A DNA stretch of 64,000 nt, taken from Candidatus Sumerlaeota bacterium (GTDB lineage Bacteria; Sumerlaeota; Sumerlaeia; JAFGJS01). Of the stretch, positions 6,115-64,000 are shown piece by piece. Positions within the stretch are counted from its first letter, which is position 1; the number at the start of each line of letters is the position of its first letter. The stretch is taken from contig JAFGJS010000025.1 of the NCBI GenBank assembly GCA_016928995.1, forward strand, positions 4,653-68,652. Direction: 5' to 3'. Under the pieces are notes generated by a model. It had not been told where the DNA came from, searched no databases, and saw only the letters and a program-made list of their open reading frames with translations. Position numbers and translations under genes: made by a program.

Positions 6115-8178
6115 ATGACTATTACACGTGCGATGAATACCGCAAAATACACCGCTACATATCGCGAAATCCTCATCATGGCGGCCCTGGCGCTGGGGAT
6201 CGCCACGATTCTTGTGGTCAGCAGCCACCGCCGCATCGAACGCGTCAACAGCGACACGCTGATCATGGTTTCGTTTTACCGCGATCTGTTTGTCGATCAC
6301 ATTCGCATTCGCGGCTGGGAACTCGGTCCGGCGCCGTTCCTCATGCCCGACCTGCCCATTCTCTCCCTCGCCCTGGCCCTCACGTCTAACATCGGTTATG
6401 GCCTGACGCTGTATTCATTGCTGGTCTACGGCTTATTGCTGCTCAGCATGGCCGTCTTGTTCAAACCGCCAAGCGAACAGTGGGCGCATGATAAAACCTT
6501 CGCGTGGGCCACTCTGCTGACCGGTCTGTTGCTGGCCACGCTGCTCAGCGCTGGCCGCAATAACGCGCTCGCGTTTTATCTCTTGCTCCCCTGCAACCAC
6601 ACCGGAGCGCTGCTCTGCGGCATATGGATTTTTCTGCTGGTCAAGCGCATGGCTCTGCGCGGCGGAAATTGGAAAGCCATGCTTGGACTGTCGCTGCTGG
6701 TCATCGCGTCCACGTTCTCCGATCTCTGGCTGATTCCTCAATTCATCGCCCCCATCATCCTCAGCATCCTCGTCTTCTCCGCGCTGCGCTATATCCGCTG
6801 GCCCCTCGCGCTGGGTCTGAGCGTCAACATCGCGCTCAGCGCGGCTCTCGGCAAATACCTGATCCGCGAAATGCGAAAATATGGAATTTTCAACATCCCC
6901 CGCTCACGCGTAAAGGAATCCGAGGAATACCTGCATGCCTACCTCCGCGATTTGAGCCATATCGTCCAACACCAGCCGCTGCTGTTCGCACTGATCGCGA
7001 TTTTCATCATCCTGACGCTCGCATTCTTCTGGAGCAAACGCAAAGAACTGCTGCGCCCCAATGAGCGCTCCGCAGAAACGCGAGACGAGGATTTCAATCT
7101 GCGCTTCAGCCTGTTCTTCATCCTCATCGCATCGCTCGCCTCTCTCGCCGCCCCCATCGCCTTGAAAAAATGGGGCAGCATGGAAAACATCCGCTATCTG
7201 CTTCCCTTTTTCGCCTTGCCGCCGCTGGGGCTGGGCGCCCTGCTGGCGCACTCCCTGCGAGCATGGCCCGCCAAACGCCTGTGGATCGCCGGAACCATGC
7301 TGACAGCCGTCTGCCTGGGCTTCAGTTCTCACAACATTAAATACTTCCGCCGCTCAGACTTGGCGCTCCCCTACCGCGAATCATTCCGGAAAATGGAGCG
7401 GCACCTCGCCGGACGGAACATGCTGTACGGCTACGGCAACTACTGGTACGCCCGGCTGCTCACTCTCGAATCGCGCCGCGGTCTGCAAATCAACGAGATT
7501 CACCCCGACGTATACATGAATCAATGGATGAACAATCCCAATCGCTATTTCGGCTTGCCCGGCTCGAATCATGGCGAATATCCGGCGTATACTTTCATCC
7601 TGATGAACGGCATCGAAAGCCCACGCGTGCTCGCTCAATTCGGCGAACCGGCGCAGAAACTGCGTTTCGAGGAAAACGACGAAGCGTTGGAAGTCTGGAT
7701 CTACAACCGGCCGCAGGACGTCAAGTTCCGCAACTTCTGCCGCACAGCGGCTTTTTTCCGCGCCTTCCGCCGGCCGGAATCGAAACCGGTCGTTTACAGT
7801 GATTTGGCGCAATACATCGCCGACGGCACGTATTGGGAAGACAGCGACCTCTTCCCCGTGCCGGCAGATTTGACGCTCGAAGTGAAATACGATCAGCCGC
7901 TCAGCGGGGACGTGCTGGAAATTTCGGCCGACGCTAATGACAAATATCATGTGACGCTGCTCAGCGAAGGAGAAACCATCGGCGAACTGGATCTGCCGCC
8001 CATGCTCGGAGGCAATATGCGCGCACGGTTTCTGCCCTTGCCGTCCGAAGCCGCCAACCGGCCCATCGACACGATCCAACTGAGACCGGACAATGACGCC
8101 GCGCCATTCCTTCTGGGCCATCTGGCGCTCTACAAGGACCCTTCGCCGCCGGAAGCGAAGGCGACGCATGAAAGATAG
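6115..8178 (+). CDS. Polytopic membrane protein with C-terminal soluble domain
   Basis: A 687-residue protein not assigned to a named family. The first ~410 residues hold about nine to eleven hydrophobic segments; the earliest (near residues 20-38) is followed by an acidic/aromatic loop of the kind seen in GT-C glycosyltransferase-like proteins (NSDTLIMVSFYRDLF). The last ~270 residues are soluble and rich in aromatic and acidic residues, probably extracytoplasmic. A lipid-linked-sugar transferase or flippase-like role is possible but unproven, as no catalytic signature is clear. No strong ribosome-binding site precedes ATG 6115; an in-frame ATG at 6133 is an alternative. The gene is followed after ~40 bp by a long inverted repeat and then the CHAT-domain gene on the same strand, so co-transcription is possible. 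Confidence 0.7.
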   Translation: MTITRAMNTAKYTATYREILIMAALALGIATILVVSSHRRIERVNSDTLIMVSFYRDLFVDHIRIRGWELGPAPFLMPDLPILSLALALTSNIGYGLTLYSLLVYGLLLLSMAVLFKPPSEQWAHDKTFAWATLLTGLLLATLLSAGRNNALAFYLLLPCNHTGALLCGIWIFLLVKRMALRGGNWKAMLGLSLLVIASTFSDLWLIPQFIAPIILSILVFSALRYIRWPLALGLSVNIALSAALGKYLIREMRKYGIFNIPRSRVKESEEYLHAYLRDLSHIVQHQPLLFALIAIFIILTLAFFWSKRKELLRPNERSAETRDEDFNLRFSLFFILIASLASLAAPIALKKWGSMENIRYLLPFFALPPLGLGALLAHSLRAWPAKRLWIAGTMLTAVCLGFSSHNIKYFRRSDLALPYRESFRKMERHLAGRNMLYGYGNYWYARLLTLESRRGLQINEIHPDVYMNQWMNNPNRYFGLPGSNHGEYPAYTFILMNGIESPRVLAQFGEPAQKLRFEENDEALEVWIYNRPQDVKFRNFCRTAAFFRAFRRPESKPVVYSDLAQYIADGTYWEDSDLFPVPADLTLEVKYDQPLSGDVLEISADANDKYHVTLLSEGETIGELDLPPMLGGNMRARFLPLPSEAANRPIDTIQLRPDNDAAPFLLGHLALYKDPSPPEAKATHER

Positions 8179-8217
8179 CGGCGCAACGAGTCATTATCGC
8201 CATCTTATTTTTTCTTG

Positions 8218-8308
8218 CTCTTGCTCTCGCTCTTGCTCTGGCTCATACTCAATCTCTGACGTAATTTAAGAGCGAGATTGAGAGCAAGAGCAAGAGCGAG
8301 AGCAAGAG
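8218..8308. repeat. Long inverted repeat made of GAGCAAGAG-type hexamers
   Basis: A perfect 22-bp inverted repeat (8218-8239 with 8287-8308) is built from CTCTTG/GAGCAA and CTCTCG/GAGCGA units. Inside it a 9-bp arm pair, CTCAATCTC (8248-8256) and GAGATTGAG (8274-8282), extends the structure around a short AT-rich loop. It fills the spacer between the membrane protein and the CHAT-domain gene. A TATAAT box overlaps its right edge (8309-8314), 16 bp before the CHAT start. It could terminate the upstream transcript or shape the leader of the downstream gene. Confidence 0.85.
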
Positions 8309-8330
8309 TATAATAGAAAGCATATCACCC

Positions 8331-10979
8331 ATGCTCTGGGAAGCGCGGCTGCATGCGGATCGCCCTTCGATCCGCCGTCATCAAACCTACCTGCGGTTGG
8401 AATTCCGCGCGGAGGATGGATCGGCGTTTGCCAGCAACTCCGTCGAGGCCGAACAGGCGCGGAAAATCTGGAGCGCCCTCGAAGGCGGACTGGAACGCAA
8501 CTATCAGCTGCGCTTGACCATCCTGAAAAACCGCATGGCGCACGATCTCGAAGATTGGTTCCACGCCTTCTTCCCCAACCCCGGCGGATACGGCGAGGCC
8601 TTCGCCCGGCTCTTCGAAGAGACCGGACACACCATCCTCTTCAGCGTGGACGCGCCGGAATGGCAGTGGTTCCCGCTCGAAGCGTTTTATTTTAATCAAC
8701 AATTCCTGGCCTTGCGCCATTGCGTGATTCGCCGCACCGGCTCCACGGAATGCCACGCGCCTCAAGCCGGTCAATCCTTCGCCGCACTCACCGGCGCCGC
8801 CAAGCTCGGCTCCGGCGAATGGGCTGACGCCTCCCGTCTGCTCGCTTCGACCCGCCGCGCGGAAGACCGCATGCTGGCCGCCGAATTGCAACCTCGCCCT
8901 CAAAACCCCTTTCAAGCCGATCACATCTATTACATTGGCCATCATGAAATCGGCAAAGGGTTGGCTCTGCAAACGGACGATGAAAATGGCGATTCCACAT
9001 GGTTCTCCGCGAATCAACTGCAAACGAACGAGGAGCCGCCCGCCTCTGTTTTTCTGAACGCCTGCCACAGCGCCGCGGCATACACTGAATCCACTGACGC
9101 AGATTCCAGGGACGAACCATTCGCCACTTGGGCCGCGCAACGCCAGGCGCCGCTGTTCATCGGCCACGCCGGGCGCATCGCCCCGGAATTCGCCGCGAGC
9201 CTGGCCGACCGCTTTTACGATGCCTGGCTTGGCCGGCGCCAGTCCGCTCCGGAAGCATGGCGGCAAGCGCTCGGTTCGCAAACCTCGCTGCAAATGCAGG
9301 ACGGCTCCGCCGCGCTGATCGGCTGCCGTTTTTATGCCGCACATCCCGCGTTCAAAATCAACGCGAAACAGCAAAACGAATCGCAGGCTCAACAGACAGC
9401 AGGTTCGACGGCTTCAACCCTTAGCGCCCGTCAAGCCTCGCTGCGCCTCGCGCTTCGAGCCGCAGTCGCCTTGCTCCTGGGGCTGATCCTGATCTTTCTC
9501 TTTTTCAAAAGCCGCGACACCCCATTCATGACACCCATGTCCCAGCCCCGCATGGTTTTGCGCGGCAACGTGCTCTATTCCACAAAGCCCTGGATGATCA
9601 CGAACAAAGGAACGCCGGTTTCGCTCTTGCCGGTAAAATACGAGGACCAGGTGACAACCATCGTGCTGGAGCAGGACGTTCAGATCGCCCATCAATCAAC
9701 GCTGAACATACCCGCCGGGCTGGACATCATCATCGCGCCCAAGCGCCGCATCATCTGCCACGGACGCCTTGAGGCATATGGCGAGGTGAACGCGCCGATC
9801 CGCTTCCTGGCGCGCGATGCCGCCGAAGCATCCCGCTGGGGCGGCATCTTCATCGGACCCAAAACGTATCAAGACCTCAGCCCTTTCGCCAGTTTCTCCT
9901 ACTGCGAATTCAGCGGCGGAGGCGGCGTGGCAATTTCGCATCGCACCCAGCCGGATCCGCAGCTCGGGCAAAACTGGTTTGAGTACGACCAGATCGACAT
10001 CCCGCCGTTTGGCCAAGACGTCGCCGTGCCCGCGCAAAGTCATCGCGGAGGCGCGATCTTCGCCTGGCGCGCCGCCCCGGAATTCTACAACTGCCGCTTT
10101 GAAAACAACAGCGCGGCTTACGGCGGCGCGGTCTATCTGCGCAACACCGGCTTCGGCGCCGTCATGTCCGACTGCGTCTTTGAAAACAACAAAAGCCAGA
10201 TAGTCGGAGGCGCGCTGTTTCTACTCGGCGCCATGTTCGAGGCAGACGAACTGCATTTCACGAACAACCGCACTGGCCAGGCCGGCGGCGCCATCTGCGT
10301 CTTCCGCGACTCCAGCCTGACTCTCAGGCACTCAGCATTCATCAATAACCGTTCCGGCATCGCAGGCGGCGGCATCTACTTCTACACCAAGAAAGGCAGC
10401 GCTCAACGGGAGAACTGCGAACATACGCTGGAGCAGTTGGAGTTTTACGGCAACACCGCCGGACGCGACGGCGCAGGCATCAGTTACGACGGCGACAACG
10501 GCGACTTGAAAGCCAAGAATCTCATTTTCAAAGGGAACCGCCTGATCGGCCAGGCCACGGAAGGAATCCCCAATCCCGCCGACGAGCAGAACAAGGAAGG
10601 ATGCGCCCTGTTCTTCAATCCGGAAAACGACAATCCTCAGGAACCGCTGCATGTCGAGTTCTCCTCGATCATCGCCCGGGGCAACATCATCGTCTGGCGC
10701 GAACATTACAATCACGACGGACAGACGATCCAGGCGTCCGGCAGCGCCGCGTACTTCGGCCCATGCATGGACGTCCGCTTGAACCTCGCGCAATGGACGG
10801 TGAGCGACAACATGGGGTATAATTCCTGCACGCCGATCGGCTACGACGAACGCATGGAGGGCGCCTCGCTCGAAGCGATTGAGCGCATCACGCGAACCTT
10901 GAATCCCGCGGCCAATCCCAACCGCAAAATCCCCCCCGAAGAAGCGGAACAAATCGCGCGTAATATCATGACTCAATAA
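8331..10979 (+). CDS. CHAT (caspase-like) domain - transmembrane - beta-helix fusion protein
   Basis: An 882-residue protein with three parts. Residues 1-345 form a CHAT domain of the caspase/separase clan: a W-x-W-F-P-L-E-A-F-Y segment matching the family's PWExL, then FLALRHCVIRR, then a His motif YYIGHHEIGKG (H204/H205) and the catalytic Cys motif VFLNACHSAA (C245). There is no signal peptide. One hydrophobic helix (about 374-393, VALLLGLILIFLFF) is followed by FKSRD. The rest (about 400-882) is a right-handed beta-helix with repeated N-N-x(4-6)-GGA(I/V/L) rungs such as NNSAAYGGAVYL and NNRTGQAGGAICVF, like chlamydial Pmp or autotransporter passengers. Predicted topology places the protease-like part in the cytoplasm and the helix outside. 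Both catalytic residues are present, so proteolytic activity is plausible. The substrate is unknown. Confidence 0.8.
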   Translation: MLWEARLHADRPSIRRHQTYLRLEFRAEDGSAFASNSVEAEQARKIWSALEGGLERNYQLRLTILKNRMAHDLEDWFHAFFPNPGGYGEAFARLFEETGHTILFSVDAPEWQWFPLEAFYFNQQFLALRHCVIRRTGSTECHAPQAGQSFAALTGAAKLGSGEWADASRLLASTRRAEDRMLAAELQPRPQNPFQADHIYYIGHHEIGKGLALQTDDENGDSTWFSANQLQTNEEPPASVFLNACHSAAAYTESTDADSRDEPFATWAAQRQAPLFIGHAGRIAPEFAASLADRFYDAWLGRRQSAPEAWRQALGSQTSLQMQDGSAALIGCRFYAAHPAFKINAKQQNESQAQQTAGSTASTLSARQASLRLALRAAVALLLGLILIFLFFKSRDTPFMTPMSQPRMVLRGNVLYSTKPWMITNKGTPVSLLPVKYEDQVTTIVLEQDVQIAHQSTLNIPAGLDIIIAPKRRIICHGRLEAYGEVNAPIRFLARDAAEASRWGGIFIGPKTYQDLSPFASFSYCEFSGGGGVAISHRTQPDPQLGQNWFEYDQIDIPPFGQDVAVPAQSHRGGAIFAWRAAPEFYNCRFENNSAAYGGAVYLRNTGFGAVMSDCVFENNKSQIVGGALFLLGAMFEADELHFTNNRTGQAGGAICVFRDSSLTLRHSAFINNRSGIAGGGIYFYTKKGSAQRENCEHTLEQLEFYGNTAGRDGAGISYDGDNGDLKAKNLIFKGNRLIGQATEGIPNPADEQNKEGCALFFNPENDNPQEPLHVEFSSIIARGNIIVWREHYNHDGQTIQASGSAAYFGPCMDVRLNLAQWTVSDNMGYNSCTPIGYDERMEGASLEAIERITRTLNPAANPNRKIPPEEAEQIARNIMTQ

Positions 10980-17240: not shown

Positions 17241-18653
17241 ATGAAAGCTCGCGAACTCATCAACCTCGGCGTCCCGCATGGTCCGCTGATCAAGACCGCC
17301 CTCGAATGCATCCGCGCGGCGGCGGAGTTCGGCATGAAAAAAGCCGCGATCCGCAAAACCGTCCACGACCTTATTGACCGCCCTGAATCCTATCATAACG
17401 ATGCGCTTTTCGCACCGTTCGCTCAAGCGCTGACCGAGGCGCGCAGCGATCCAAGCGCACATTTTATGCCGCGTGAGGCGCCCGCGCCGCACCGCATCTG
17501 GGGCGAAGGGCTGGACGAGAACGCCTTGCAACAGTTGCGCAACGCATGCAGCCTGCCTGTGTCGGAGCGCGCGGCATTAATGCCCGACGCGCACGTCGGT
17601 TACGGCCTACCCATCGGCGGAGTGCTGGCCGTGCGCGGCGCGGTGATACCGTATGCCGTGGGCGTGGACATCGCCTGCCGCATGAAACTGACCGTGCTTG
17701 ACATCCCGCCCGCAACGCTGGATGAAGACAAAGGCCGGCAACGGCTGACAAAAGCGCTAGAAACGGAAACGCGTTTTGGCATCGGCGCGTCGTTCAAGGG
17801 CGCCGAACGCCGCGAACATACGGTAATGGACGAGGATTGGAAAATCTCACCAGTCACGCGCGACCTGAAGGACAAAGCCTGGTCGCAACTCGGCACAAGC
17901 GGCAGCGGCAATCATTTCGTAGAGTATGGCGTGCTGACGTTGGAGCAGCCCGACCTTGGGCTGGCGGCGGGAACGTATCTCGCGCTGCTCAGCCATAGCG
18001 GCAGCCGCGGCACAGGCGCCGAGGTCTGCTCGTACTATAGCAAACTGGCGATGCAGCTACACGCGGACCTGCCCAAGGAACTGCGCCACCTGGCCTGGCT
18101 CGAATTGAAAAGCGAAGCGGGCCAGGAGTACTGGCGGGCGATGAACCTGATGGGGCGCTACGCCGCGGCGAATCATGCGCTGATCCACCAGCGCATCGCG
18201 CGGCATCTGGGCGTCGATGTGCTGCTCGATGTGGAGAACCACCACAACTTCGCCTGGGAGGAGCAGCATGACGGCGAACGGCTGATCGTGCATCGCAAAG
18301 GCGCCACTCCTGCGGGCAAGGGCGCGCTGGGCGTGATTCCCGGCAGCATGGCCGATCCCGGCTTCATCGTACGCGGCAAAGGCGGCGAAGGATCGCTCGA
18401 TTCCGCCTCGCACGGCGCGGGCCGCCAAATGAGCCGCAAACAGGCAATGAACAGTTTCACCTGGAATGAGTTGAAAAAGCGGCTCAAGCAGCGCAATGTG
18501 ACGTTGCTCACCGCCGGACTGGACGAAGCGCCGATGGCGTACAAGAATATCGAGGCCGTGATGTCGCAGCAAAGCGACCTGGTGGAGATCATCGCCCGCT
18601 TCGATCCGCGTCTGGTGAAGATGGCTCCGGCCGGCGAGCGGCCGGAGGATTGA
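17241..18653 (+). CDS. rtcB: RNA-splicing ligase RtcB
   Basis: A 470-residue GTP- and Mn-dependent RNA ligase joining 2',3'-cyclic phosphate or 3'-phosphate ends to 5'-OH ends in tRNA or mRNA repair. Motifs are MPDAHVGYGLPIGGVLAV, YAVGVDIACR (metal Cys near residue 146), GTSGSGNHFVE (metal His), LLSHSGSRGTG (metal His), DVENHHNFAW, HRKGATPAGKGALGVIPGSM, and the GMP-accepting His in SASHGAGRQMSR near 392. All key residues are present. No archease or RtcA gene is adjacent. The AGGA ribosome-binding site at seven bases is donated by the repeat upstream. The next gene follows after 21 bp on the same strand. Confidence 0.95.
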   Translation: MKARELINLGVPHGPLIKTALECIRAAAEFGMKKAAIRKTVHDLIDRPESYHNDALFAPFAQALTEARSDPSAHFMPREAPAPHRIWGEGLDENALQQLRNACSLPVSERAALMPDAHVGYGLPIGGVLAVRGAVIPYAVGVDIACRMKLTVLDIPPATLDEDKGRQRLTKALETETRFGIGASFKGAERREHTVMDEDWKISPVTRDLKDKAWSQLGTSGSGNHFVEYGVLTLEQPDLGLAAGTYLALLSHSGSRGTGAEVCSYYSKLAMQLHADLPKELRHLAWLELKSEAGQEYWRAMNLMGRYAAANHALIHQRIARHLGVDVLLDVENHHNFAWEEQHDGERLIVHRKGATPAGKGALGVIPGSMADPGFIVRGKGGEGSLDSASHGAGRQMSRKQAMNSFTWNELKKRLKQRNVTLLTAGLDEAPMAYKNIEAVMSQQSDLVEIIARFDPRLVKMAPAGERPED

Positions 18654-42671: not shown

Positions 42672-45600
42672 TTAAGCATTATGGGATAAGGCGCGGATGG
42701 ATTCGATGATTTCCGCGCAGGTCTGGGGACGCTCGGTGGGATCTTTGGCGAGACAGCGGGCGACAAGGTCGCTGATGTCTGGCGGAATCTCGGAGTCAAG
42801 TTCGTTGGGAGTGGGGGGCACCTTGTGCAGGTGCTGCGCGAGGATGTTTTCGCCGGTGAAGGGGCGCTCGCCCAGCAGCATCTCGTACATCACGACGCCG
42901 CAGGCGTAGATGTCAACGCAGGGGCCGATCCCTTCGGAGCGGATTTGCTCGGGCGACATGTAGGCCATGGTGCCGACGACGACGCCTTCCTTGGTGAGAT
43001 GGCTGTCGTCGCTGAGCCGGGCGAGGCCGAAGTCGACCATTTTCACTTCGTCCGTGGCGTTGGTGATGAGGATGTTCTCGGGCTTGACGTCGCGGTGGAT
43101 GACATCCGAGTCGTGCGCGGCCTGAAGTCCTTCGGCCATTTGACAGACGTAGCGCAGCGCTTGCTCCAACGGAATTTTGTGGTGCGCGTGCAACTTGCGC
43201 CGCAAGGTTTCTCCATCAACGTATTCCATGGTGATGGAAAATTCATCCTCGCTGGTGATGATGTCGTAAATCGAGACGATGTGCTTGCTGGCGACCTGGG
43301 CCACGGTCTGGGCTTCGCGGAGCATACGTTGCTGATGCTCCTCGCTGCGCGCGAGATGCGACGGCAACACTTTCCAGGCCACCTGACGGTTGAGGATGGT
43401 GTCCTGCGCGAGGTAAACGACGCCCATGCCGCCTTCGCCGATTTTCTGAATGATCTTATAGCGTTGCGTGCGCTTTTCCTGCTTGTCCGGCGCGGTTATC
43501 GCCCCGGTGCGCTGTTCGCCAAAGTCCGTCGGCGTGTCCACGTCGTGCTTCGTGACGAGCTGCGACAGTTCCGCGGATTGCCGCAGCCGTTCCTGGATGT
43601 CTTTGTAATAGTAATCGATGGCCAGCACTTTCTCGAAGGCTTCCTTGGCCATGTCATACTGGCCGCTGCGTTCGAAGGTACGGCCGATGAGATAATAGAC
43701 GTCGATATTGTCGCGGGTGGGTTTCTTGTTTTCGCCCAGGCATTCCTCGAAGCGGTCGATGGCGACTTCGAAGAGGTCTTTTTCCATGAAACACTCGCCC
43801 AGCGCCTTGAGCGCCCGGCGAGCGTATTGTTCGTTATCGTTTAGGCCCTGGAACAGACGGATCGCTTCGTCGTATTCGGCGTAGCCCTGCAAGAGCACGC
43901 CGAGTTCGTACATGATGTCTTTGTCGCGCGGATTGTTCTTCAGCTCGGCGCGGAAATTTTCGATGGCCTGATCGGCCTGTCCGACACGATTGAAGATCTG
44001 GCCGGCTTTCTTGAAGTTGCCCGCACGCTCATAATAACTGGCGGCGAGGATCAGGTTGTCGAGCTGTTCGAACATCTCGGCGGCTTTTTGCGCGTTGCCG
44101 GCCTTGCCGTAGCAATTGGCGGCCTGATTCGCATTATTGGCCTGCTCAAAAAGTTCCGCGGCTTTCTGATACTCCCCTGCCGCTTCGAAATGCCGCGCCG
44201 CAGTCTCCACGTCGCCCGTGAGTTGCAGCGTCTGCGCGGCGCTGGCGAAGTCGCCGATCTCGCGAAACAGCGAGTAGGCCTGGTCGTAGGCCTGGATGTT
44301 GCGGTAAATCTCGGCGGCTTCCTGCAGGCGCCCGGCCCGTTCATAGCATTCGGCGGCCAGCTTTTCGCAATCGGAGGGCAGATATGAAATCAACTCGCCG
44401 GAATGAAGGCCGAAGTAAACCAGCTGATTTTCGGGATGCACAAAGCACAATGAGAGGGAATCCGGCATGTCCATTTGATAAAGACAGCGGCCTTCTTCGT
44501 CGAGCAGCGATATTTCCTTGGTTCCGGTCGCTACGGTAATGCCGTTCAACGTGAGATAAGCGATCCGGCGAACCTTGTGGGTGAGTTCGGCCTCCCATAA
44601 GAGATTCATCGCGGAGTCGAAACGCATCAGCTGGTTGTCGCCCACAGCGGCGGTCAGAAACGAGCCTCCGGGTTCGAGTTCGAGGGCGTGCACCCGGGCG
44701 TCCAGCTGCGCGCGCGCCAATTCATTGCCGTCTTCATCGTAGATCATGATTTCGCCGCCCAACGTGCCGACGGCCAGCTGCACCGGAAGACGGGCCATGC
44801 TCAGCGTCCAGGCTTTAAAATCGACGGGCTTCTCCCACAGCGGCTTGCCTTCCATGTTGTAGCAAACGAGTTTGTCGTCGGTGGCCACGGCGAGAATCTC
44901 GTCGCCGGGAAGAAAAATCAGATCTTCGGCCGGTGCGGTCAAAGTGGTTCGCCAGCGTTCCTCTTTTGTTTCATCGAGCATGATCAGCGGATGCCGCCCG
45001 GAGTCGAGCTCGCCTTTCACGCCGATGGCGATGCGGTCGCCGGCCGTGTTCAACGCCAAGGAGCCGGGCTTGTAGTCGCCGCCGATTTTGTATTTCCATT
45101 TATGGGCGAAAGTATCGGTCAGATACAAAATTTCGCGTCCGGCCGTGCCGAGGGCGACCTTCTTGCCATCGCCGGAAAAGGCAAAGACGACGAGCATGGA
45201 CTTGAAATCGCGGTGTTCGGCTTCGTTCAGCACGACCAGACGGGCATAGAGCTCCGCCGCCTTGATTTGCCCTTCTTCGGTTTGGCTGTATGCCTCGGCG
45301 GCCAGGTTGAGCTGTCCGAGCTGCTCGTATATTTCCGCCAGCCGTTGATGATTCCCGGCCTTCTCGTAGAGAGCGATCGCCTGTTTTGTGTCGCCTTCCT
45401 CATAGTAGAGGTCGGCGGCCCGGTTCGGTTGTTTATCGAGCTCATAGAGCATGGCGGCGTAGAGTTTGTCGCCGTTTTGCTCGAATCCCATCGCGGTGCG
45501 CTCAAGATCGCCTTGCTGCGCGCATGCGGCGATCATCTGCTCCACGAGTCCCAGTTCGCGGTAAATAGCGATCGATTTATCGTATTGTCCGGCCTTCAGA

Positions 45601-45995
45601 TAGAGGCTTGCGGCTTGCGAGCGGTTGCCGATGGATTCGCAAAACACCGCGGCCTGAAGAGTTTGATCCTGATCCAGATAGAGCTGGACGGCGTCCTTTT
45701 GCCGGCCGGCCTTGACGAGAGCCTGCGCGGCGTTTTCAAAATCATCGGCCCGCAGGAAAAGTTTCGAGGCTTGTTCAAATTCGTTCGCGGCCAGAGCCGC
45801 CTCGGCCGCACGCACGTATTCGCCAGCGCGTTTGAATGCCTCGCAGGCTTCTTTCGGTTGCTGGAGCTGTATGAACGTCTCGCCCAAGCCGGCTTCATTG
45901 CCGGCCATGCGAAACCAGCGCAAGGCCTTGGTGAACTGGTTTTTCCTGGCGCAACGTTCTCCCAGCTTGTTGCTGATGTTCTTGATCAAACCCAT
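42672..45995 (-). CDS. TPR - beta-propeller - TPR - Ser/Thr protein kinase
   Basis: A 1,107-residue soluble protein. Residues ~15-270 form many TPR-like helical hairpins (ALRWFRMAGNEAGL, AAQALVKAGRQKDAVQLY). Residues ~275-550 form a beta-propeller (VVFAFSGDGKKVALGTAGRE, DKLVCYNMEGKPLWEKPVDF). A second TPR set spans ~560-810, ending with FERSGQYDMAKEAFEKVL. The kinase domain (~840-1105) has the Gly loop GEGGMGVVYLA near 850, VAWKV, HRDVKPEN near 966, DFGLAR near 988, and MSPEQI. All catalytic residues are present. There is no membrane segment, unlike many bacterial Hanks kinases. ATG 45995 is chosen; a TTG 15 bases upstream has no spacing for a ribosome-binding site. It lies in the block with the FHA-kinase and PilB/GspE genes. 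Confidence 0.85.
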   Translation of the reverse strand: MGLIKNISNKLGERCARKNQFTKALRWFRMAGNEAGLGETFIQLQQPKEACEAFKRAGEYVRAAEAALAANEFEQASKLFLRADDFENAAQALVKAGRQKDAVQLYLDQDQTLQAAVFCESIGNRSQAASLYLKAGQYDKSIAIYRELGLVEQMIAACAQQGDLERTAMGFEQNGDKLYAAMLYELDKQPNRAADLYYEEGDTKQAIALYEKAGNHQRLAEIYEQLGQLNLAAEAYSQTEEGQIKAAELYARLVVLNEAEHRDFKSMLVVFAFSGDGKKVALGTAGREILYLTDTFAHKWKYKIGGDYKPGSLALNTAGDRIAIGVKGELDSGRHPLIMLDETKEERWRTTLTAPAEDLIFLPGDEILAVATDDKLVCYNMEGKPLWEKPVDFKAWTLSMARLPVQLAVGTLGGEIMIYDEDGNELARAQLDARVHALELEPGGSFLTAAVGDNQLMRFDSAMNLLWEAELTHKVRRIAYLTLNGITVATGTKEISLLDEEGRCLYQMDMPDSLSLCFVHPENQLVYFGLHSGELISYLPSDCEKLAAECYERAGRLQEAAEIYRNIQAYDQAYSLFREIGDFASAAQTLQLTGDVETAARHFEAAGEYQKAAELFEQANNANQAANCYGKAGNAQKAAEMFEQLDNLILAASYYERAGNFKKAGQIFNRVGQADQAIENFRAELKNNPRDKDIMYELGVLLQGYAEYDEAIRLFQGLNDNEQYARRALKALGECFMEKDLFEVAIDRFEECLGENKKPTRDNIDVYYLIGRTFERSGQYDMAKEAFEKVLAIDYYYKDIQERLRQSAELSQLVTKHDVDTPTDFGEQRTGAITAPDKQEKRTQRYKIIQKIGEGGMGVVYLAQDTILNRQVAWKVLPSHLARSEEHQQRMLREAQTVAQVASKHIVSIYDIITSEDEFSITMEYVDGETLRRKLHAHHKIPLEQALRYVCQMAEGLQAAHDSDVIHRDVKPENILITNATDEVKMVDFGLARLSDDSHLTKEGVVVGTMAYMSPEQIRSEGIGPCVDIYACGVVMYEMLLGERPFTGENILAQHLHKVPPTPNELDSEIPPDISDLVARCLAKDPTERPQTCAEIIESIRALSHNA

Positions 45996-46184
45996 AGCGC
46001 CATGTTCCAAACATTCATCCGCCGCAAGATCATTGCGTTGAAGGATGATATTTTAACCGCACGGGCGTCCTGCTCAGGAACCATGAGTGAATCTCGCCGC
46101 TACATTATTGGATCGGCTGATGTTGCCGAAAAGTTTACATCGATCTTCATCATCGTTATCCTGACAGCGATCATCGGATGCCGC

Positions 46185-56428: not shown

Positions 56429-59400
56429 TTATTTCTCGAATTCGCCTGGAGGCATGCTGCTGAGGCCGGGAATGACGAACTCCGGAATGCCGATGGAGGC
56501 GTGGCCTTCCCAGCGTGGATGATTGTCGATGGTCCAGTACATGACGCGTTCCACGATGATGCCTTTGCCGTCGATTTCCTTCACCAGCGTGGAGATGGAT
56601 TGTGTGCCGCCGGGGTTCGCCACGAAGTTGTTCGCTTTCACCGTAAGGCGCTGCCCCGGACTGACGGCATACGGACTCGGCGCCGGAACGACCACGCTGC
56701 TGTCGGGCTTGATGAACTCCACGCTGACGTTCGCGGTGGTGTCGCCGGGATTTCCGACGGTGATGAAGCATTCGAAGTTTGAAGTGCCCCAGACCGCGCC
56801 TTCCGGCAAGTACCAACTCGGTTGCGTTCCCGTCATGCCCACGACGCCCGTGGCGCCGGTGCGGGAGTTGTATCCCGGAGCCGTGAAGTATTGCGGGCGC
56901 TCAGCAGTGAAGGTCATTTCGTTCTCAGATTCAAATACCGTGGCGAAGCCGGGATTGTCGGTCATCTGAGCCGGATAATCCCGTTCGACATCGATCGTCT
57001 TGCGCGTGGCCGGTCCGATTTCGAACTGATCGGTCACCTGCGTTCCATCAGACAACAGGAAGCGCAAGTTGATGGTGATCGAGGTCGGATGCGAATTCGC
57101 CAGCGTAAAGAAAGTATCAAACGACGAATGCGTGGCGCCTTCGGCGAAATACCATATGTCGCTGGGTTCCGTGATGCCGAGCGAGGTGTGGCCCCATTTC
57201 AACGGCAGGTCCGGCATGTCGCCGGTGGCCAGAACGTTGCCGTACATCGTGCGCTCGATCACAACCGGCACGGGATGCTCGCCGATGGATTGGATGCGCG
57301 TGGAGAAGTGGCGGTTGGGCGCTTGATCCGAGTTGTTCGGGATGATGTTGTAGCGGCTCAGGGCCGGGATGTTGAAGGTTTTTTCAATGTTGGCTCCGTT
57401 CTCCACGAGGTAAATGACGCCGAGCTGAGCAGTGCGGGTTGTGGGATTGCCGACGGACACAATCATGAGCCGTGGTTGACCGCTGCTGTCATTCGCCGTG
57501 GTGCCTTCCGCCAGGTACCAATCCGTGTCGAGATGGACCGAGCCGATGGAGTCTGTGCCGCCCATGCGCGGAGTTGAGGGAACGCCCACGCCGGTGAGCG
57601 GCCAATACATCGCTCGCTCAGCGTAAACCAGGGCCTGATCCTCGGCCAGCAGTTCGGCCGCGACGAATCCCTGGGTGCGGCCAGCCGCGCTGATCACATC
57701 GCCCAGGTTGAAAGTATAGCGGGAATTGGCCGCAAGGGTGCGAGTCGTGGTCAGCGGTGCGTCGCCATTGTCAAAGAGGATGTTCAGCCCGACCACGGTG
57801 GGATCGGTCGGATGCGGGTTGACGACGAGCACATACGTCTGGAAGCCGCCGTCGGTCTTGCCTTCGGCGAAGTACCATTTGTCGCTCAGCATGCCGGTCA
57901 AACTCCAGACCAGGTCGTATTCATTGCCTGAATTCGTGCCGGTGACGACGATGTAATAGTAACCTTCCGACGGCATGTCGATGATGATCTGCTCATTGTC
58001 CGTATCGGTCGAAGAGGATGCGACCAAATTGCCATACTCGTCATAGAGCAGCAGGTTCAAATCGCCCATGTCATCCAGGAAGGTCAGATCGATGATCAAT
58101 TGATCCTGCCGTTCGCCGACGTAGATTTGATACCAATCGTCATCCAGTTGCACGCCGTATCCGTCGATGTCGCTCAAATTCTGGTTCTCATTGCCGGTCA
58201 GGTCATACGCGGACGCCTGGTCATTGTTGCCGCTGGAGCCTTCGTATCCATCCTCGGTGATTTCGTGCCATTCGAGATCATAGCTGTTTCCGTTATCGTC
58301 GCCGGTGACTTGCACGTAGACCGTCTGCCCGGCAAGGCTCGGATCCACGCAGAGGATGTATTCATTGTCGGTCGTGCTGTGGGCGGAGCCGATGATGTTG
58401 CCTTCCTCATCGTAAAGCGTGAGGTTGATGTCGCCGTCAGCGTGCTCGAACAGCGCCTGAATCGAAATGCCCAGCGCGTCGCCGGAGAGCGTAATCGCGT
58501 ACCAGTCGTCGTCGAGTTGCGTGCCTGTGATGCTGCCGCTGGTATCGCCGTCCGAGATCAACGTCGCGGAGGTCTGGTCGTCATTCTCCTCGTATTCGTC
58601 GTCGTCCAGCAGCTCGTAGCACAGGTCGTATTGATTGCCGTTGTTGGGTCCGTAAACGCGGACGAAGTAAGAGCCGTTCGGATTCATGATCACGACCTGC
58701 TCATTGTCCGTCTGGCTTGCACCCGCGCCGACCAGGTTGGTTTCGTCTCCGAGGAAGACCTGCACGTTGATGTTGCCGCCGGCGTGGTCGAAGGTGACGT
58801 CGATCACCAGCGAGTCGTAGCCCGCAGCCACGTCAATCTGATACCAGTCGTCGTCGAGCTGCGTGGCGGGTCCGCCGAGGAAGGCGGGATCCGAAAGACA
58901 GGCGGCGACGCCGTTCGTCAGGTTATACGCGCTGCCGATGTCGTCGTTGGGCTCCGCGCCGTCCTCTTCGTATGCGTTCCAGATCAAGTCGTAGAGGTTG
59001 CCGCTATCGTCGCCGATGATCTCGATATAGTAGCAGCGCGTCGAACCAGGCGGATCCGCCGGCGGCAAGGCAAAGACGATCACTTCGTTGTCCGTGGTCG
59101 ATTCCGCCCTGGCGATTTCAACGCCTGCGCTGTTGTAGAGAATCACATCGATATTGCCTTGGCTGTGATCAAAGGTGACGGTGATTTCCAGCACGTCCTC
59201 TTCGGGGCCGACGCAGATTTCGTACCAGTCGCTGCCGGACTGCACGCCCTGGCCATCCGGCAGGCCTTCGCCTTCGTTGCCGGTCAGGTCGTATGCGTTG
59301 CCCATGTCGTTGTTGTTGTAGCCGTCTTCAACATAGCCGTTCCAGATCAGGTCGTACTCGTTGCCGCTGTTGTCGCCGGTCACGCGGATGTAATAATCGG

Positions 59401-62400
59401 TCACGCCGCCAGGCAGCACGAAACCGATGTGCTCGTTATCCGTCGTCGAGAGCGACGAAGCCAGCAAGGCGCCGTTCTGATCGTAGAGTTGGATGTCGAT
59501 GTTGCCGCCGGCATGCTCGAAGATCGCGTCGATGCTGAGGAAGTTCGAATTTTCATCGACGCTGATGTGATACCAGTCGTCGTTCAGCTGCACGCCCATG
59601 CCGTCGATGTAACTGAGCTGATTTTCGCTGCCGTTGGTGTCATTGTTGTCGCCTAACGTGGCGTCGTAGGCGTTCGCCTGAATGTTATTTCCGTCGTCGC
59701 CCTCGTATGCGTCGTCGAAGTGCATATCCCAGGTGAGGTCGTAGGTGTTGCCGGAGTCGTCGCCGGTCACGACCACGTAATATGTGCCTGAGGCCGGATT
59801 CGTCACCAGAATCTGTTCATCGTCGGTCGTCGAATTGGACACCGCCACGGTCGTTCCGGTCGAATCGAGCAGGGCGATGTTGATGTCGCCGCCTTCATGG
59901 TCGAAGAAGGCCTGAACATCGAGCAGTGTCACTCCAGGCGGCAGCGTGATGATGTACCAGTCCTCGCCGACTTGCACGCCTTCGCCGTCAACCTCGGACA
60001 GGAGCTGCTCCTCGAACGGCGTCAGATCAAAGGCGTCTTCCATCGAGTTGTTGTCGTAGTTGTCTTCCGGCAACGATTCCCAGCAGAGGTCGTATTCGTT
60101 GCCATTGTTGTCGCCGGTGACGACGATGTAATACTCGCCCGCGGCGGGATTGGCGACGCCGATTGACTCGGTGTCTTCAGTCGAGTTGGAGACTGCGATC
60201 GACGTGCCGCTTGAGTTGAGCAGTTCGATGTCGATGTTGCCGTCCGCGTGAGTGAAGGTCGCCGTCACGTTCAGACGCGCCATGCCTTCGGGCACGGCGA
60301 TCTTGAAGACGTCCGTGTCGCCCTGTATGCCTAGTCCGTTGATCTGCGAGAGGCAGCCGTTCTGGAACGCCGTCAGGTCGGTCGCCGAGGTCAGGCTGTC
60401 GTTATCGTCGCCGTAGTTGTCCTCGTAGATCACAACCCAGCTCAGGTTGTATTCATTGCCGGAGTTGTCGCCGACGACTTGGATGTAATAGTCGCCTTCG
60501 GGCGGGAGGTTGTAGAAGATCGATTCGTTGTCGGTCAGCGATTCGCCGCTGCCGATCAACACGCCGTTGCTGTCGTATAGATAGATGTCGATGTTGCCCA
60601 GGGTATGGATAAACTCGGCGTCGACCTGCATGCTCAGCGCGCCTTCGCGCACGTGGATCATGTACCAGTCGTCGTCGGTGTTCACTCCGTTGCCGTCGAT
60701 GTTGCCAAGGTCGTTGCCGTCATGGCCCAGGCCATGGCCGTCTTCGCCGTCTTCGCCGCCGCCGTCATAGACGGTCAGGTCGGTGGCGTCGTTCATGTTG
60801 TTGTTGTCGCCGTAGTCGTCGTCCGCCACGATGAACCAGCGCAAGTCGTATTGCGTGCCGATGGCCGGACCTTGCACTCGGATGCGATACTCTCCGGACG
60901 CCGAGGCGATGGCGACATATTCGTTGTCGGTCGATGTTGAGGACGCGGCGATGGGATTGCCCAGGCTGTCCGTAATTTCCATCCGCAGGTTGCCGTCGGC
61001 ATGAGTGAAGAGCAATTCCACACGCAGCAGATCGCCGCCTGTTCCGGAGTCGAAGCCGAACCAGTCGTCGTCGAGATTGAAGCCGAAACCGTCGATCTCG
61101 CTCAGCAGCGTGTTCTCGTAATCGGTCAAGTCATAGTATGTGCCCAGCGTGTCGTTCTCTTCGTAATGATCCTCGCGGATCGCCTCCCATTGCAGGTCGT
61201 AGGTGTTCCCTGTGTTGCTGCCTTTCACGACGATGTAATACGTCCCCGCTGAAGGCACGGTGTAGTTGATCGATTCGTTATCCGTCGAGGTGTCAGCGGA
61301 CGCCACCAGAGCGCCGCCCGAATTGCGCAGCTCCAGCGAGAGATTGCCGTTGGCATGCGTGAAGGTCAGCGCAATGCTAAACAGCCCGGTATCGGCGTCG
61401 GCCACGATCTCGAACCAGTCATCGTCGAGTTGAACGCCGTTGCCATTGACCGATGACAGCAATTCGCCTTCCGATTCGGTCAAGTCGAACGCTTCGCCCT
61501 GGCTGTCATTCTGCTCGTATAAATCGTCCATGATGCAGTTGGCGGTCAAACCGTATTGGTTGTGTGAATTCGGGCCGTCCACCAGGATGTAATACCAGCC
61601 AGGCTCCGCATCGTACGCTAAAACCTGTTCAACGTCGTTCGCGGTGACGCTTTCGTCGATCAGCGTCAAATCGCTGATTAACTGCGCCTGTTCCAGGCCG
61701 CTGGTGTAAAGGTGCAGATCGATGTCGCCATCGGCGTGGGTGAATGTCGCATTGACTTGCAGCAGCCCGATGAGCGAGGTGACTTGCATCACATACCAAT
61801 CGTCGTATTCGCCTTTCGTCGCGTTTCCTTCCGGCAGGGAGCTGAAACATTCAGTCAAGCCGTAGGCTGAGGCCGGATCGGAATTGGGGCCGTAGGGATC
61901 GTCCGGCGGTGGCAGCACGGTCAGCTTCACCAAGTGCGAAGTGTCATCCGCGCCATTCGTGGAATTGGTGAAATTCAGGGTGGCGGTATAGGTGCCGGTG
62001 GAGAAGGAGTTCGCCACGGAGCCGATTTGCACAAGCACCGGACTGGTGTTGGCCACCGGATCGGTGTTGGACATATCGAACATTTGCACCGTGCCCACGC
62101 TATACTCGATAATGTCCACCCAGCCGGTGGGTCCGCCGGGAGGATATTCAATCGACACGGTGAAGTCATAGGGCGCGTCGCCTTCGTTCGAGAGGTAATA
62201 GGTGTACTCCGCCGGATCGAATGGGCCGCCGGTGTAGCCTTCTGTCTCGAAATCCTCGTCGGCGCTGACACGCATGTACGGCCCTGGAGTATGGACCGTC
62301 ACGGCCACGGTGATACTGGTGTCGCCATCGCCGTTGGTGTTGTTAAAGAACCACATATTGCCCTCATAAGGCTCGTTCTGTTGCTTCAGGTTATAGACGT

Positions 62401-64000
62401 TTTCATTGAGGTAAATGTTGACGTCCGTCGAGTTGTTCGCGCCCAGCGCTCCGCCATCCGAGGAACAGGAGAGCCAGTTGACCGTCGAGGAGGTGCTCCA
62501 ATCCATCACGCCGCCTCCGTCGTTGCGCACGTTGATGCTGATCTCTTCCGGATCGAACGGACCATCCTCGGGGCCTTCGGCGTTGAAGCCGGCGATTGGA
62601 TTGAGCAGCAGCGCGGGATCGCCGCTGACCGCATCGACGTCCAATGTAACCGAGCGGGATGCAGTTCCCAGACCGTTGTTTGTATTGTTGAAATGAAATG
62701 CACCGGTGTGCTGTCCAGCCGTCAGCAGGTTCGCGTCGTCGTTGAAATCGACTGTGACAAAAGCGCAGTTGCCTGGGATCAGTGAGCCGCTTTCCTGGTC
62801 CGCCGAAACCCAAGTCACGTCCGCGCTGAACGTCCAGTCAAGCGTCTCGTTGCCGACGTTGGTGATCTGATATTCCACACGTGTCGGGTATTCAGTTATC
62901 GGCTGCTTGAACGGACCGCCTTGGTCGCCGGCGCCAGTCAGCTCTGTGCTCGGGGTCATTTGCAGCAGCGGCAGCGCGGGAACAGTGCCGGTGTATTCGT
63001 CGAAGCCGATGTCGATATCTGATCCGTCGCCGGTCACCTGTCCGTCGGCTTTGCCGTCCATCGGCCGCGCATCGCCCTCGGCGTCGATTGTGGCGCCGGT
63101 GACGAACTGGCCGGCGTCGATGCATGGAGAGCTCGCGCTCAGATGCAGATCATCGTTGTTAAGATCCACGAATTGTGGATTACTGCTAAAGTTGCCCGTG
63201 CCGCCGGAAGCCCAGTCTTCAATGCAGCAGTAGGTCGGCGCAGCGGAACTTGCGATTTGATCCGAGGCGCCGCCGGACTTCTCGTTGTAGTAGATGATGT
63301 TGTTGCGGATGTCGCCCTGGCAGTTATACAAACCGCCGCCCGAGCCGGTGGAGGTCACTTGGTTGCCGAGGATGTCATTATTGTAGATCTGACCGTCGCA
63401 GGAATGGAGTCCGGCGCCTTGTGTCGTGCCTGATCCATTTTGCGTGATCACATTGTTGATGATCAAGCCGTCGCAGTTGTAAATTCCCGCGCCGTACGTT
63501 GCAAGGTTTGCGGTGATGATGTTGTTGCTGATCGTCGCCTTCGTCCCCGCGCCGCTGATGCTGCCGCCGTAAATGCCGCCGCCGTAGGAGGCCATCGTCA
63601 CATTGTCGAAATTGCCGGCGCCGCCCTGGATGCGGAAACCACGAATCTCGCAGTCTTCCGTTTCCGTGCCGGCGAATCGCACCGCAGGCTGGCCGGGGAA
63701 TGGCGCAGTGTTGGCGTTAATCACCGTGTTGTAGATCGCATCCGTATTATACGGATCGTCGGTGACCAGCACGATGTCCTTGCCCTTGAAATTAACGGCT
63801 TCGTAGTACGTCAGCGTGTCTCCGTCGCTGCCCGTCGCGCAGATGATCGCATCGCCGCTCGACAACGCGTCGATGGCGGCTTGGATCGAAGAGTAATCCG
63901 CTCCGCCGTTCGGATCGACGCTGTAGCCCACGGTGATGCGGAATTCGCAGGTCGGCAGGCTGTAATTGCCGGCCAGGTCGCGAGCCGCGCTGTCGTCGAT
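56429..64000 (-). CDS. Giant surface protein, beta-helix + 11 PPC domains + DUF5719-like repeats (5' end beyond window)
   Basis: At least 2,523 residues; the frame is open to base 64000, so the start lies outside. The first visible residues (AARDLAGNYSLPTCEFRIT) look like the end of a bacterial Ig-like domain. Next comes a right-handed beta-helix (63.9-63.0 kb) with NNIITANLATYGAGIYNCDG. Three BACON-like or choice-of-anchor sandwiches follow (63.0-61.9 kb; GNETLDWTFSADVTWVSAD). Then 11 tandem pre-peptidase C-terminal (PPC) domains of ~120 residues (61.9-57.9 kb), each with a YDLTxxE start, GVQLDDDWYxI, GNIDIxLYD, STTDNEQI and YYIVVTGDNSGNEYDL core. Four DUF5719-like units close it (WYFAEG, WYLAEG, WYFAEG, WYLPEG with ERAMYW). 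It is Asp-rich and probably calcium-binding, exported and surface-exposed. Confidence 0.85.
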   Translation of the reverse strand: MDDSAARDLAGNYSLPTCEFRITVGYSVDPNGGADYSSIQAAIDALSSGDAIICATGSDGDTLTYYEAVNFKGKDIVLVTDDPYNTDAIYNTVINANTAPFPGQPAVRFAGTETEDCEIRGFRIQGGAGNFDNVTMASYGGGIYGGSISGAGTKATISNNIITANLATYGAGIYNCDGLIINNVITQNGSGTTQGAGLHSCDGQIYNNDILGNQVTSTGSGGGLYNCQGDIRNNIIYYNEKSGGASDQIASSAAPTYCCIEDWASGGTGNFSSNPQFVDLNNDDLHLSASSPCIDAGQFVTGATIDAEGDARPMDGKADGQVTGDGSDIDIGFDEYTGTVPALPLLQMTPSTELTGAGDQGGPFKQPITEYPTRVEYQITNVGNETLDWTFSADVTWVSADQESGSLIPGNCAFVTVDFNDDANLLTAGQHTGAFHFNNTNNGLGTASRSVTLDVDAVSGDPALLLNPIAGFNAEGPEDGPFDPEEISINVRNDGGGVMDWSTSSTVNWLSCSSDGGALGANNSTDVNIYLNENVYNLKQQNEPYEGNMWFFNNTNGDGDTSITVAVTVHTPGPYMRVSADEDFETEGYTGGPFDPAEYTYYLSNEGDAPYDFTVSIEYPPGGPTGWVDIIEYSVGTVQMFDMSNTDPVANTSPVLVQIGSVANSFSTGTYTATLNFTNSTNGADDTSHLVKLTVLPPPDDPYGPNSDPASAYGLTECFSSLPEGNATKGEYDDWYVMQVTSLIGLLQVNATFTHADGDIDLHLYTSGLEQAQLISDLTLIDESVTANDVEQVLAYDAEPGWYYILVDGPNSHNQYGLTANCIMDDLYEQNDSQGEAFDLTESEGELLSSVNGNGVQLDDDWFEIVADADTGLFSIALTFTHANGNLSLELRNSGGALVASADTSTDNESINYTVPSAGTYYIVVKGSNTGNTYDLQWEAIREDHYEENDTLGTYYDLTDYENTLLSEIDGFGFNLDDDWFGFDSGTGGDLLRVELLFTHADGNLRMEITDSLGNPIAASSTSTDNEYVAIASASGEYRIRVQGPAIGTQYDLRWFIVADDDYGDNNNMNDATDLTVYDGGGEDGEDGHGLGHDGNDLGNIDGNGVNTDDDWYMIHVREGALSMQVDAEFIHTLGNIDIYLYDSNGVLIGSGESLTDNESIFYNLPPEGDYYIQVVGDNSGNEYNLSWVVIYEDNYGDDNDSLTSATDLTAFQNGCLSQINGLGIQGDTDVFKIAVPEGMARLNVTATFTHADGNIDIELLNSSGTSIAVSNSTEDTESIGVANPAAGEYYIVVTGDNNGNEYDLCWESLPEDNYDNNSMEDAFDLTPFEEQLLSEVDGEGVQVGEDWYIITLPPGVTLLDVQAFFDHEGGDINIALLDSTGTTVAVSNSTTDDEQILVTNPASGTYYVVVTGDDSGNTYDLTWDMHFDDAYEGDDGNNIQANAYDATLGDNNDTNGSENQLSYIDGMGVQLNDDWYHISVDENSNFLSIDAIFEHAGGNIDIQLYDQNGALLASSLSTTDNEHIGFVLPGGVTDYYIRVTGDNSGNEYDLIWNGYVEDGYNNNDMGNAYDLTGNEGEGLPDGQGVQSGSDWYEICVGPEEDVLEITVTFDHSQGNIDVILYNSAGVEIARAESTTDNEVIVFALPPADPPGSTRCYYIEIIGDDSGNLYDLIWNAYEEDGAEPNDDIGSAYNLTNGVAACLSDPAFLGGPATQLDDDWYQIDVAAGYDSLVIDVTFDHAGGNINVQVFLGDETNLVGAGASQTDNEQVVIMNPNGSYFVRVYGPNNGNQYDLCYELLDDDEYEENDDQTSATLISDGDTSGSITGTQLDDDWYAITLSGDALGISIQALFEHADGDINLTLYDEEGNIIGSAHSTTDNEYILCVDPSLAGQTVYVQVTGDDNGNSYDLEWHEITEDGYEGSSGNNDQASAYDLTGNENQNLSDIDGYGVQLDDDWYQIYVGERQDQLIIDLTFLDDMGDLNLLLYDEYGNLVASSSTDTDNEQIIIDMPSEGYYYIVVTGTNSGNEYDLVWSLTGMLSDKWYFAEGKTDGGFQTYVLVVNPHPTDPTVVGLNILFDNGDAPLTTTRTLAANSRYTFNLGDVISAAGRTQGFVAAELLAEDQALVYAERAMYWPLTGVGVPSTPRMGGTDSIGSVHLDTDWYLAEGTTANDSSGQPRLMIVSVGNPTTRTAQLGVIYLVENGANIEKTFNIPALSRYNIIPNNSDQAPNRHFSTRIQSIGEHPVPVVIERTMYGNVLATGDMPDLPLKWGHTSLGITEPSDIWYFAEGATHSSFDTFFTLANSHPTSITINLRFLLSDGTQVTDQFEIGPATRKTIDVERDYPAQMTDNPGFATVFESENEMTFTAERPQYFTAPGYNSRTGATGVVGMTGTQPSWYLPEGAVWGTSNFECFITVGNPGDTTANVSVEFIKPDSSVVVPAPSPYAVSPGQRLTVKANNFVANPGGTQSISTLVKEIDGKGIIVERVMYWTIDNHPRWEGHASIGIPEFVIPGLSSMPPGEFEK

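Follow-up and report, generated by a model that had tools for sequence, protein, structure and literature searches.

A metacaspase-TM-CHASE2 layout that puts the receptor outside the membrane and the protease within the cell was reported in 2012 (PMC3501461), and a 2020 paper proposed that transmembrane (TM) orthocaspases trigger extrinsic death (PMC7475262). Proteins with a caspase followed by a TM segment and an extracellular PBP were described in the same year as part of a two-gene conflict system (PMC7159879). The original prediction for the gene examined here, a CHAT caspase-like domain tied by one helix to an external beta-helix, held that no system with this order had been described; given these reports, and the CHAT-TM proteins with other outer domains that we found in other genomes, that claim is wrong.

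The gene is a single open frame with an ATG start at positions 8331–10979 (+ strand) of the window, the whole 64,000-nt stretch of DNA analysed, which begins at base 4653 of contig 67 in a host genome assembly of 4.5 Mb in 161 contigs. Its 882-aa product has three parts, namely a CHAT domain, one TM helix and a right-handed beta-helix with Pmp-type rungs, and these predicted identities were borne out by Pfam, a CHAT profile built in this study and a hydrophobicity scan. Among the closest published systems in layout is the Trichodesmium erythraeum metacaspase-TM-CHASE2 protein (PMC3501461, PMC2853523), which shares an N-terminal caspase-fold protease predicted to be cytoplasmic, a TM segment, an extracytoplasmic receptor and a proposed outside-in logic, but has Peptidase_C14 in place of CHAT, and CHASE2 with several helices in place of a beta-helix with one. 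System 4, in which a caspase accompanies EACC1, likewise has an N-terminal caspase-superfamily domain and a variable C-terminus, in some members a TM segment and an extracellular PBP, though it depends on an EACC1 gene at its 5′ side whose product has one TM helix (PMC7159879). The 5′ gene here is polytopic, has no EACC1 match and gave a sole Pfam match to DUF2270 at E 0.94, and we rejected membership of System 4. A search of the host genome also returned no EACC1, though the control for that search gave no signal either.

In other genomes the same layout recurs with CHAT itself. An 804-aa ORF (L116:757-3168) holds CHAT inside, a TM segment and an extracytoplasmic sensor, and differs in having CHASE2 as its outer domain, with more helices after it; a second CHAT gene lies downstream on the opposite strand. 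Three related proteins (L096, L099 and L101) have the order cyclase-CHAT-TM-TPR-CsgG, and a fourth protein (L113) is CHAT-TM-PEGA. All four share with the present protein a CHAT domain that runs straight into a single TM helix and then a tail outside the cytoplasm, and differ in their outer domains and, in the first three, in the cyclase at the front. Those three, with their CsgG/LpoB-like end, place a nucleotide cyclase and a caspase-like protease in one membrane-tethered chain. One further CHAT-TM protein (L094) has an outer part of no assigned domain. In a search of mostly open-access literature that covered CHAT with CHASE2, PEGA or CsgG, no paper treated CHAT proteins tethered to the membrane as a class, and none reported a beta-helix in the outer position of such a protease. 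The layout is thus not new, as it recurs and is partly published; what sets this protein apart is the beta-helix in the outer position, which we did not find there elsewhere.

The CHAT domain and its predicted catalytic pair

The CHAT domain covers residues 1–345 (positions 8331–9365, +). In a Pfam scan of the full protein, PF12770 (CHAT) matched residues 175–315 at E 2.1e-5 and 24.6 bits, just above its curated cut-off of 24 bits, and the score was 27.7 bits when the CHAT half was scanned by itself. Because the Pfam score was marginal, we built a second profile from 29 CHAT domains taken from other genomes. This profile matched residues 21–313 at 57.4 bits, as opposed to a maximum of 3.7 bits when the same 365 residues were shuffled 1000 times, and its alignment also covered the front of the domain, where EWQWFPLEAFYFNQQFLALRHCVIRR aligns to the PWExLHDGxxFLA...R block. 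Scoring the N-terminal half against a clan CD peptidase profile had been put forward as a check on the original prediction, and the half scored with both models. A three-row profile including the CHAT half had the CHAT of PDB 8tl0 as its best solved-structure match (E 3.3e-10), while an AlphaFold model of the half made without an alignment reached a pLDDT of 35.5, too low to show a caspase-hemoglobinase fold. The host genome contains no other CHAT match and no match to Peptidase_C14.

Both catalytic positions of the CHAT motifs (H/Y)xxxH(G) and LxxC are present. H204 (positions 8940–8942, +), in a GHH that replaces GHG, falls by HMM alignment in the column that holds His in 28 of the 29 CHATs, and C245 (9063–9065, +), in LNAC, falls in the column that holds Cys in 27 of them. 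C245 is also in the Cys column for all eight sequences of a separate alignment, made up mostly of TPR-CHATs. That alignment took a different register around the His, leaving both H204 and H205 outside the His column, and the assignment of H204 therefore comes from the profile and the larger alignment. Where the original prediction named His 204/205 with Cys 245, H204 and C245 hold up as the predicted pair and H205 does not; it occupies the site of the usual Gly in 'HG', where A, S or T is found in 7 of the 29 CHATs. The N-terminal half is a CHAT domain with a predicted His-Cys dyad. The predicted CHAT fold with its dyad is shared with TPR-CHAT/Csx29 of Craspase (PMC9729208) and with the CHAT of PDB 8tl0, but Craspase is soluble, is switched on by RNA-guided cytoplasmic partners and has no membrane part.

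It could be that this CHAT is dead or non-proteolytic and serves a membrane-anchored adhesin, or a rod that binds the cell wall, as a module for protein binding or dimerisation, as the low Pfam score and the altered GHG motif would allow. In some conflict systems caspase domains are often inactive, at about 70% in one position (PMC7159879). We regard a dead CHAT as unlikely, since His and Cys both sit in the catalytic columns and the Gly after the His is also missing from the seven other CHATs noted above.

The membrane helix and the predicted outer beta-helix

A single TM helix follows the CHAT domain at residues 373–392 (positions 9447–9506, +). The segment LALRAAVALLLGLILIFLFF (about 373–392) is the only strongly hydrophobic one in the protein, with a mean Kyte-Doolittle value of 2.7 over 19 residues compared to 1.15 for the next best window, in keeping with the single helix originally predicted. 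Its hydrophobicity so far exceeds that of every other segment that we dropped the idea of a mere insertion. The hydrophobicity scan found no N-terminal signal or N-terminal hydrophobic segment, and two positive charges lie on each side of the helix within 15 residues, so that charges do not decide the topology. Most beta-helix relatives in the class start with a signal peptide or lipoprotein signal, as do two in the host genome. Since the protein lacks an N-terminal signal and its beta-helix relatives mostly carry signal peptides, we infer that the topology is likely N-in/C-out, with the CHAT domain in the cytoplasm and the beta-helix in the periplasm or outside. The window carries pilus and type II secretion genes along with a secretion-tail domain, which suggests that the host is diderm; if so, the rod, tethered to the inner membrane, would lie in the periplasm and not at the surface. 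The predicted split between inside and outside is thus the most likely topology, while the surface location that went with it is unsure.

Residues 345–372, between the CHAT domain and the helix, are of low complexity and could be cut. This leaves room for inside-out signalling or self-processing, in which CHAT would sense a cytoplasmic cue and cut its own linker or a partner, freeing the rod from the protease or altering its anchoring. For the two-gene caspase system, the proposed mechanism is auto-proteolysis by the caspase, which deploys the domains fused to it (PMC7159879). We consider self-processing improbable here, as neither a cytoplasmic sensor domain nor an EACC1-like partner gene was found (the latter in the search whose control was without signal), and after cleavage of the cytoplasmic linker the helix would still anchor the rod.

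The C-terminal half (residues 396–882, positions 9516–10976, +) is predicted to be an extracytoplasmic right-handed beta-helix. Its Pfam matches are to Beta_helix (PF13229, E 1e-10) and, over three stretches, to Chlam_PMP (PF02415, E 2.3e-11). FxxN/GGAI rungs repeat through residues 573–733, and alignment with exported beta-helix proteins places the core of these Pmp-like rungs at residues 572–695 (10044–10415, +). An AlphaFold model of the half, made with four sequences, was confident only at residues about 616–735. Foldseek with this model returned nothing below 0.05, though its top rows were beta-helices, and structural alignment of those rows gave right-handed beta-helices with Z up to 20.3 over 239 residues, for a model that is confident only in the middle. 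The Pfam matches and the fold alignment agree with the Pmp-like beta-helix of the original prediction. The aligned partners are glycoside hydrolases, mannuronan epimerases, polysaccharide lyases, phage tailspikes and the adhesin PfbA. Many such beta-helix proteins bind glycans, but a common fold is no proof of function.

The Pmp repeats FxxN/GGA(I/L/V) are common to this protein and the chlamydial Pmp autotransporters, but we rejected the identity with a Pmp autotransporter, as the Pfam scan gave no C-terminal autotransporter beta-barrel and there is no N-terminal signal. Contig 84 of the host genome encodes a 1743-aa exported protein (L124:1077-6305) made of Propeptide_C25, Peptidase_C25 (gingipain family), a Pmp-type beta-helix and fn3. 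Like the 882-aa protein it carries a clan CD peptidase and a Pmp-type beta-helix in one chain, but it is wholly exported through a signal peptide, has a propeptide and fn3, and belongs to another peptidase family.

Relatives and genomic neighbourhood

A search of 60 relatives with the whole 882-aa protein gave beta-helix matches only. The CHAT half had no match at E 1e-3 outside its own genome among 386 genomes of many phyla and nothing above noise within the class, where the other CHATs mostly have the domain at the C-terminus, or CHAT and then NB-ARC, and are not close relatives. No second CHAT-beta-helix protein was seen in those 386 genomes, queried with the CHAT half, nor in 396 genomes of another phylum, queried with the whole protein. 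A pattern scan across 84,980 species genomes, sensitive to close relatives alone, found three beta-helix loci and no CHAT. Viral contigs held no relative of the protein, the CHAT profile finding one partial CHAT only, and on plasmids the CHAT half had no relative that could be used. Among the genomes searched, the beta-helix as outer partner of CHAT was found in the host genome only.

Occurrence in one genome, in a class where both parent kinds (CHAT and exported beta-helix) exist, might reflect a fusion between a CHAT gene and an exported beta-helix gene that is recent, private to the lineage and without stable function, or else an assembly artefact. This seems to us very unlikely. The frame is uninterrupted, the codon usage of the two halves correlates with that of neighbouring genes at r 0.81 and 0.80, and the G+C at the three codon positions of both halves is typical of the region. 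The TM helix also lies exactly at the junction, like in other CHAT-TM proteins.

Upstream lies a gene for a 687-aa polytopic membrane protein (6115–8178, +), which the original prediction suggested as a possible partner. This protein matched no Pfam, NCBIfam or PADLOC family, and 38 genomes from its class yielded no relative. The 152-nt gap between the two genes contains a long hairpin built from facing repeats of the GAGCAA hexamer (8206–8324, no strand assigned) with a minimum free energy of −68.5 kcal/mol and a z of −8.2. The partnership is not supported and we rejected it, given the hairpin between the genes and that neither gene has relatives in the class from which linkage could be judged. 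The hairpin belongs to a dispersed family in which arms of GAGCAA-type hexamer repeats face each other 60–130 bp apart. Arm matches in the host genome number 42 forward and 41 reverse, compared to 2 and 9 for a reversed control, and copies were found on contigs 9, 20, 46, 57, 67, 88, 108, 116, 129, 138 and 147. It is possible that these hairpins are terminators or mobile hairpin elements. The presence of one of them between the two genes argues against a tight operon.

The surrounding genes are housekeeping genes, including those for PilT, ManA, MurB, a PpiC-type protein and an RtcB-like protein, with PdxA named by eye. PADLOC gave no defence-system match for the CHAT gene or the adjoining gene, and its mad1 match in a MerR-type neighbour covers the HTH part only. 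Neither a substrate gene nor a conserved neighbour of the CHAT gene was found. Three other genes of the window have features of their own. The RtcB-family protein (17241–18653, +) matches RtcB-related and intein-containing models far under their cut-offs. A 1112-aa frame (42672–46010, −; start codon provisional) carries TPR and beta-propeller repeats and, in an order that is unusual, has its protein kinase domain at the C-terminus, and a 2500-aa protein (56429–63931, −) has repeated PPC domains, a BACON-like domain and a Por_Secre_tail match mid-protein.

Proposed signalling across the membrane

The analysis shows the domains, the catalytic positions and the single helix; the topology, the activity, the direction of signalling, the ligand and the substrate are proposals. 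The reading we prefer is a single-pass N-in/C-out receptor-protease that works outside-in to give a stress, dormancy or death response, which we hold to be about evenly balanced between right and wrong. The beta-helix, in the periplasm (or outside if the host is monoderm), would bind a glycan, cell-wall or protein ligand, and binding or clustering would then draw CHAT domains together or shift the helix. The activated CHAT cysteine protease could cut a cytoplasmic protein or itself, and this cleavage might lead to the stress, dormancy or death response. Allosteric activation of a CHAT protease by a partner sensor is known from Craspase (PMC9729208). The kept catalytic positions, the strong single helix with no N-terminal signal, the mostly exported beta-helix relatives, the same layout elsewhere with sensor-like outer domains and the published analogues with a like proposed logic are consistent with the outside-in model. 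Against it stand the absence of an orthologue in the genomes searched, the flanking charges that leave the topology undecided, the His in place of Gly after the predicted catalytic His, the low-confidence model of the CHAT half and the lack of a substrate gene or conserved neighbour.

To our knowledge, the CHAT proteases whose activation is understood all respond to cytoplasmic cues. We suggest tentatively, and think it rather less probable than the outside-in model itself, that this protein is the first known case of a beta-helix ectodomain on a CHAT protease and a true transmembrane receptor-protease, linking an external glycan or surface ligand to intracellular proteolysis, and is one of a wider undescribed class of membrane-tethered CHATs with exchangeable outer domains (CHASE2, PEGA, TPR-CsgG, beta-helix). 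If this is true, a CHAT domain whose one helix spans the membrane and ties it to a binding rod on the far side would make a simple bacterial receptor-protease, with a logic comparable to death-receptor signalling. Furthermore, the recurrence of CHAT and one TM helix with several outer domains makes these proteins testable as a class, and not as a single odd protein.
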